DNA from: Nitrososphaera sp.
GTDB lineage: Archaea > Thermoproteota > Nitrososphaeria > Nitrososphaerales > Nitrososphaeraceae
Direction of reading: 5' to 3'
Assembly (NCBI RefSeq): GCF_013388945.1
Contig: NZ_JACAEH010000006.1
Span: forward strand, 1 to 59,511
DNA length: 59,511 nt
In this document: positions 1 through 35,542 of the stretch, piece after piece
Numbering within the stretch: the stretch's first letter is position 1
Layout of the letters: each line of letters opens with the position of its first letter
Position numbers and translations under genes: made by a program
The notes under the pieces: model-generated
Told to the model about the DNA's origin: nothing
The model's database searches: none
The model's input: only the letters and a program-made list of their open reading frames with translations

Positions 1-700
<700 letters not shown>

Positions 701-710
701 AACGCACTTG

Positions 711-738
711 AACCGGATTGCTCCATGCAACCGGTTTT
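711..738 (+). terminator. Hairpin and T-run after the 23S rRNA
   Basis: AACCGG (711-716) pairs with CCGGTT (731-736). An inner TTGC/GCAA stem and one bulged A enlarge it, the loop is TCCAT, and TTTT begins at 735. It sits about 10 bases after the likely 23S end. It may be a terminator or part of a processing structure. A second possible pairing, CACCAAC near 690 with GTTGGTG near 740, would enclose it. The remaining bases to 912 show no gene. Confidence 0.5.
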
Positions 739-35354: not shown

Positions 35355-35374
35355 AATAAAGTGGGGCCGAAGGG

Positions 35375-35404
35375 ATTTGTCCTGACGCGGCGAACGCCGC
35401 AATC
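35375..35404 (-). other. tRNA-Trp intron 2 (T-loop, noncanonical)
   Basis: Thirty bases inserted in the T-loop, containing a perfect GCGGCG-TT-CGCCGC hairpin. CAAAT occurs at both junctions, so the exact cut may shift by up to five bases (between about positions 56 and 60). Without its removal no T-arm can form, while with it the arm is standard (TTCAAAT loop). Confidence 0.8.
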
Positions 35405-35427
35405 ATTTGAACCCTTGACCCACGGGT

Positions 35428-35457
35428 TTCTTGCTCTAACTAGCCCATGCGTTAGAT
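35428..35457 (-). other. tRNA-Trp intron 1 (position 37/38)
   Basis: Thirty bases between G37 and A38. TCTAAC near its 5' end pairs with GTTAGA, forming the intron hairpin next to the exon junction as required for a bulge-helix-bulge cut by the tRNA splicing endonuclease. Confidence 0.85.
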
Positions 35458-35542
35458 CTGGAGCCCGTTGCGATGCCTGGCTTCGCTACGACCCCACAAA
35501 GTGGCACCGTGTTTTTGATAGCGCCAAGATGTCTGTATAAGT

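Follow-up and report, generated by a model that had tools for sequence, protein, structure and literature searches.

The minus strand of the window (the whole 59,511-nt stretch of DNA that was analysed) carries at 35362–35495 a tRNA-Trp gene in which both the anticodon loop and the T-loop are interrupted. We put at roughly 92% the probability that this is a functional, single-copy tRNA-Trp(CCA) gene with two introns, one at 37/38 and the other in the T-loop, most probably at 58/59, both of which are removed by the tRNA splicing endonuclease.

Structure and conservation of the tRNA-Trp gene

The gene occupies exactly the span of the Rfam tRNA model match (RF00005; 39.6 bits, E 1.4e-6 over 1.2 kb), which holds two large insertions, in the anticodon loop and in the T-loop; a model of the family tRNA-Trp, whose exons include this gene's own, gives 78.4 bits. 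Read on the minus strand, each of the two loops is 37 nt long, i.e. 7 nt plus 30 nt, and removal of the two 30-nt segments, as the first-pass annotation had proposed from the cloverleaf, leaves a complete 74-nt tRNA-Trp with the anticodon CCA, GGGGUCGUAGCGAAGCCAGGCAUCGCAACGGGCUCCAGACCCGUGGGUCAAGGGUUCAAAUCCCUUCGGCCCCA. The mature 5′ end lies at 35495 and the discriminator base A at 35362. Exon 1 (35458–35495, nt 1–37) includes the anticodon and is followed by intron 1 at 37/38 (35428–35457, 30 nt, ATCTAACGCATGGGCTAGTTAGAGCAAGAA), exon 2 (35407–35427, nt 38–58), intron 2 in the T-loop (35377–35406, 30 nt, best-supported position 58/59) and exon 3 (35362–35376, nt 59–73), all on the minus strand and read from the sequence and its homologues. 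A TATA-box-like element, ACTTATA (35536–35542, minus strand), lies 41–47 nt upstream of the gene, and CTTATA is found approximately 40–50 nt upstream of tRNA-Trp in 15 of the 16 family members compared, a recurrence from which we infer a promoter element. T-rich stretches often lie 3′ of the gene in the family. The contig itself starts inside a 23S rRNA gene, of which the 3′ part only is present (window 1–714, plus strand).

A pattern for the 5′ half of tRNA-Trp was run on 70 Nitrososphaeraceae genomes and matched in 58 of them (36 of the 37 with a completeness of 90% or more). We read 61 tRNA-Trp loci, 59 of them full-length and two cut at a contig end or at the end of the stretch read. Both introns are present in all 59 full-length homologues, which come from 12 genera, and because they share the same two insert positions the coincidence lies far beyond chance. 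The comparison with other genomes of the family thus bears out the initial proposal of a tRNA-Trp with a canonical and a T-loop intron, the coordinates of which proved exact. Removal of both inserts yields a tRNA-Trp of 73–74 nt in the 59 homologues, and the exons are nearly invariant, exon 1 included, with just 20 types. The introns diverge (26–48 nt at 37/38 and 23–33 nt in the T-loop) with stem pairing retained. The sequence GGGC occurs in 55 of the 59 otherwise variable 37/38 introns (window 35428–35457, minus strand).

The assembly (1.99 Mb in 31 contigs) is 99.29% complete and its tRNAs were read from individual loci; no other tRNA with a CCA anticodon is among those listed for it, and the family tRNA-Trp pattern has a single match in this genome. 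A second, intact tRNA-Trp gene, which the first-pass annotation had named as evidence against its own reading, was not found in this assembly. The Rfam score of merely 39.6 bits, and the failure of ARAGORN, which reports no tRNA in the window, to detect the gene, could be taken as signs of a degenerate tRNA-Trp or an assembly artefact, with inserts that broke the gene and another tRNA decoding tryptophan. We regard this as extremely improbable, as no other CCA tRNA was found in the genome and 59 independently assembled genes have the same architecture, invariant exons and a conserved upstream element; a pseudogene or an assembly error was rejected in view of these homologues. ARAGORN also scores poorly or misses five other tRNAs of this genome, which look interrupted outside 37/38.

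The predicted T-loop splice motif and its probable cut position

Every one of the 50 distinct T-loop inserts reads, from C56 to the 3′ strand of the stem, AAN, a stem-loop, G(A/G)A(C/U), ANN and U60. The intron element GRAY pairs with G53-U-U-C56 over 4 bp in 50 of 50 (27 GAAC, 13 GAAU, 7 GGAC and 3 GGAU); the exon half of this central helix (GUUC) is invariant and sequence changes occur on the intron side alone. Here the intron half is GGAC (35379–35382, minus strand). On both sides of the central helix all 50 inserts have 3-nt bulges, AA↓N and AN↓N (the arrow marks the cut), represented in this gene by AA↓A at 35406–35408 on the 5′ side and AA↓A at 35376–35378 on the 3′ side (both minus strand), the latter cut after the second A. 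The T-loop insert is thus predicted to be close to a strict bulge-helix-bulge (BHB) motif, with a 4-bp central helix and 3-nt bulges, and the 37/38 intron has a weaker central helix of about 2 bp in the MFE fold (relaxed BHB). It had been suggested that the T-loop intron would need a splicing enzyme of relaxed specificity; since the T-loop site is near-strict and the 37/38 helix weaker, such relaxation may be no less important for the 37/38 intron.

The hairpin within intron 2 (35383–35405, minus strand, TGATTGCGGCGTTCGCCGCGTCA) is supported by the pairing statistics at the base of its stem. Over the first five pairs of this inner stem, 221 of 250 cells are paired. When the 3′ arms were shuffled among the sequences 10,000 times, a control that ignores relatedness, the mean was 172 and the maximum 194, and when the partner was slid 77–99 of 250 cells paired. 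Pair 2 is G-C in some inserts and A-U in others, and both partners change in pairs 3 and 4. The hairpin, first described as perfect and GC-rich, is present but has one bulged U, and is GC-rich in this genus and AT-rich in Nitrosocosmicus-type genomes. The CAAAT seen at both junctions in the first-pass annotation is likewise present in this genome, but the repeat occurs in 10 of the 50 distinct inserts and is best regarded as incidental rather than as a signal. A mobile-element duplication was rejected, as the repeat is found in just these 10 inserts, and a self-splicing intron was rejected because 30 nt is too short.

A stable hairpin of conserved outline might also stay in the mature tRNA, whose T-arm would then be longer than usual. 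This would destroy the T-loop/D-loop contact in the sole tRNA-Trp, and the inserts are free in length (23–33 nt) and sequence, with only the BHB features kept; we therefore consider retention very improbable and prefer excision by the endonuclease. Under that preferred reading, exon G53-U-U-C56 and intron GGAC of the transcribed precursor would form the 4-bp central helix of the BHB, the intron hairpin would be its inner helix, the heteromeric endonuclease would cut after the second nucleotide of each 3-nt bulge (AA↓A), and a tRNA ligase would join the ends to give the T-loop UUCAAAU.

At archaeal BHB sites cleavage falls after the second bulge residue and before the third (PMC4307357). This rule, together with the conserved 3-nt bulges, places the T-loop intron at 58/59 in all 50 distinct inserts, with cuts here at window positions 35407/35406 and 35377/35376 and a predicted mature T-loop of UUCAAAU. 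The cut might instead lie one position away, at 59/60, or in a register set by the AAAT repeat. The junctions share CAAAT here, so that several registers lead to one product, cleavage one base either side (59/60 included) gives an identical product in this genome, and nt 59 is variable among relatives under both readings; yet the canonical rule and the conserved bulges point to 58/59 in 50 of 50 inserts. We judge a shifted cut to be unlikely, though far from negligible, and retain 58/59.

In the MFE fold of the whole precursor the central helix forms with all 4 bp, and the AAA bulge and the inner hairpin are present as well. When the T-arm is folded in isolation, the state with five T-stem pairs kept and the central helix open is preferred by 0.9–4.7 kcal/mol in 50 of 50 inserts, since forming the central helix costs G53 its partner C61. 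Within the whole precursor the mean probability of the central helix is approximately 0.4 here, and at least 0.5 in just 3 of 50. The BHB motif may need the enzyme for stabilisation, and the case for this predicted motif is one of conservation, not of energy.

The splicing endonuclease and a second T-arm insert

Two genes of the genome match tRNA_int_endo, as is also the case in most family genomes. The first encodes a 180-aa protein that aligns end to end with the catalytic subunit of Aeropyrum pernix (3p1z_B, E 7e-49) and has the catalytic His, a position occupied by Ala in 3ajv_B, a chain otherwise near-identical to 3p1z_B. Lys36 (K36) of this protein is aligned with K44 of the crenarchaeal loop, and the crenarchaea-specific loop lysine is required for the broad specificity of the endonuclease (PMC6379350). 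The second gene encodes a 202-aa paralogue without the catalytic His, which we take as the structural subunit. From these two genes the genome is predicted to encode a heteromeric (alpha-beta)2-type EndA, the heteromeric type having been reported for Thaumarchaeota (PMC4090602). The search for a heteromeric tRNA splicing endonuclease that had been recommended for this locus thus ended in two candidate genes, one with both the catalytic His and the loop Lys.

The tRNA-Gly(UCC) of this genome (contig C1, 2913–3018) has an insert between the T-stem and the T-loop, at approximately 53/54. This insert is present in 8 of the 11 relatives read, and in three members of the same genus tRNA-Gly(UCC) reads CCCGGGTTCAAATCCCGG, cleanly without it. 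Because the insert is present or cleanly absent among congeners, T-arm inserts behave as introns in this lineage, and the genes with and without it provide before-and-after sequences for studying the gain and loss of such introns.

Origin of the introns and relation to known systems

The T-loop intron is absent from every outgroup tRNA-Trp examined, from six families. In one Nitrosopumilaceae-like family (two loci) the gene is intronless. The other five families have a longer 37/38 intron with C/D-type motifs (nine loci) and no T-loop intron; these motifs are GATGATG-like and mostly accompanied by CTGA, the introns also include a segment complementary in sequence to the anticodon loop, and a C-box-like GATGA stands at the equivalent place in eight outgroup introns. 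An extra insert on the D-arm side was seen in tRNA-Trp of two of these families (three loci). Ten more families of the order were also scanned for tRNA-Trp: sequence patterns gave chance matches, and the exon model located the gene in one of the ten, which is counted in the five above. In Haloferax the intron of the archaeal pre-tRNA-Trp is a box C/D guide. It lies in the same tRNA and at the same 37/38 site, and the five outgroup families keep C/D-type motifs there; in contrast, the motif pair is found in the 37/38 intron of 0 of 59 Nitrososphaeraceae homologues. The absence of the motif pair from all 59 led us to reject a box C/D guide in the 37/38 intron and in the T-loop intron alike.

As far as sampled, these distributions suggest that the Nitrososphaeraceae lineage gained the T-loop intron and lost the guide function of the 37/38 intron. 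A link between the two events is speculation. The Nitrososphaeraceae ancestor could have lost the C/D-guide role and gained a T-loop intron kept ever since for serving tRNA-Trp maturation, for example if modification of the T-loop (pseudouridine 54/55) had to wait for splicing, but we think this improbable and give it little weight.

Archaeal T-loop BHB introns have been documented in Thermoproteales and Caldiarchaeum (Marck and Grosjean 2003, as cited in PMC6379350), and the T-loop intron described here is thus a new, clade-fixed case of a known type. It resembles the noncanonical archaeal BHB introns in being short, in lying outside 37/38 and in its 3-nt bulges and 4-bp helix, and genes for a predicted heteromeric endonuclease with the loop lysine were read in the same genome. 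It differs from the other archaeal T-loop introns in being fixed across a mesophilic family, in tRNA-Trp and always together with a 37/38 intron. The thaumarchaeal noncanonical tRNA introns modelled by tRNAscan-SE 2.0, of which 107 were counted (PMC8450103), come from the same broad lineage; the main text of that paper gives neither positions nor isotypes, and the introns annotated for Nitrososphaera genomes probably include the T-loop intron. Our literature search on Nitrososphaera tRNA introns found nothing specific. The tRNA-Ile(UAU) of Cyanidioschyzon merolae, with introns in the D-, anticodon and T-loops (PMC9602550), likewise combines several BHB introns in one tRNA, one of them in the T-loop, but is eukaryotic, has three introns and is of unrelated origin.

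A tRNA-Trp gene of this architecture is missed by common tRNA finders. The finding dates the replacement of a C/D-guide intron by a short one. The T-loop intron seems to be fixed throughout a family of ammonia-oxidising soil archaea, and the tRNA that it interrupts is essential and encoded by a single gene.
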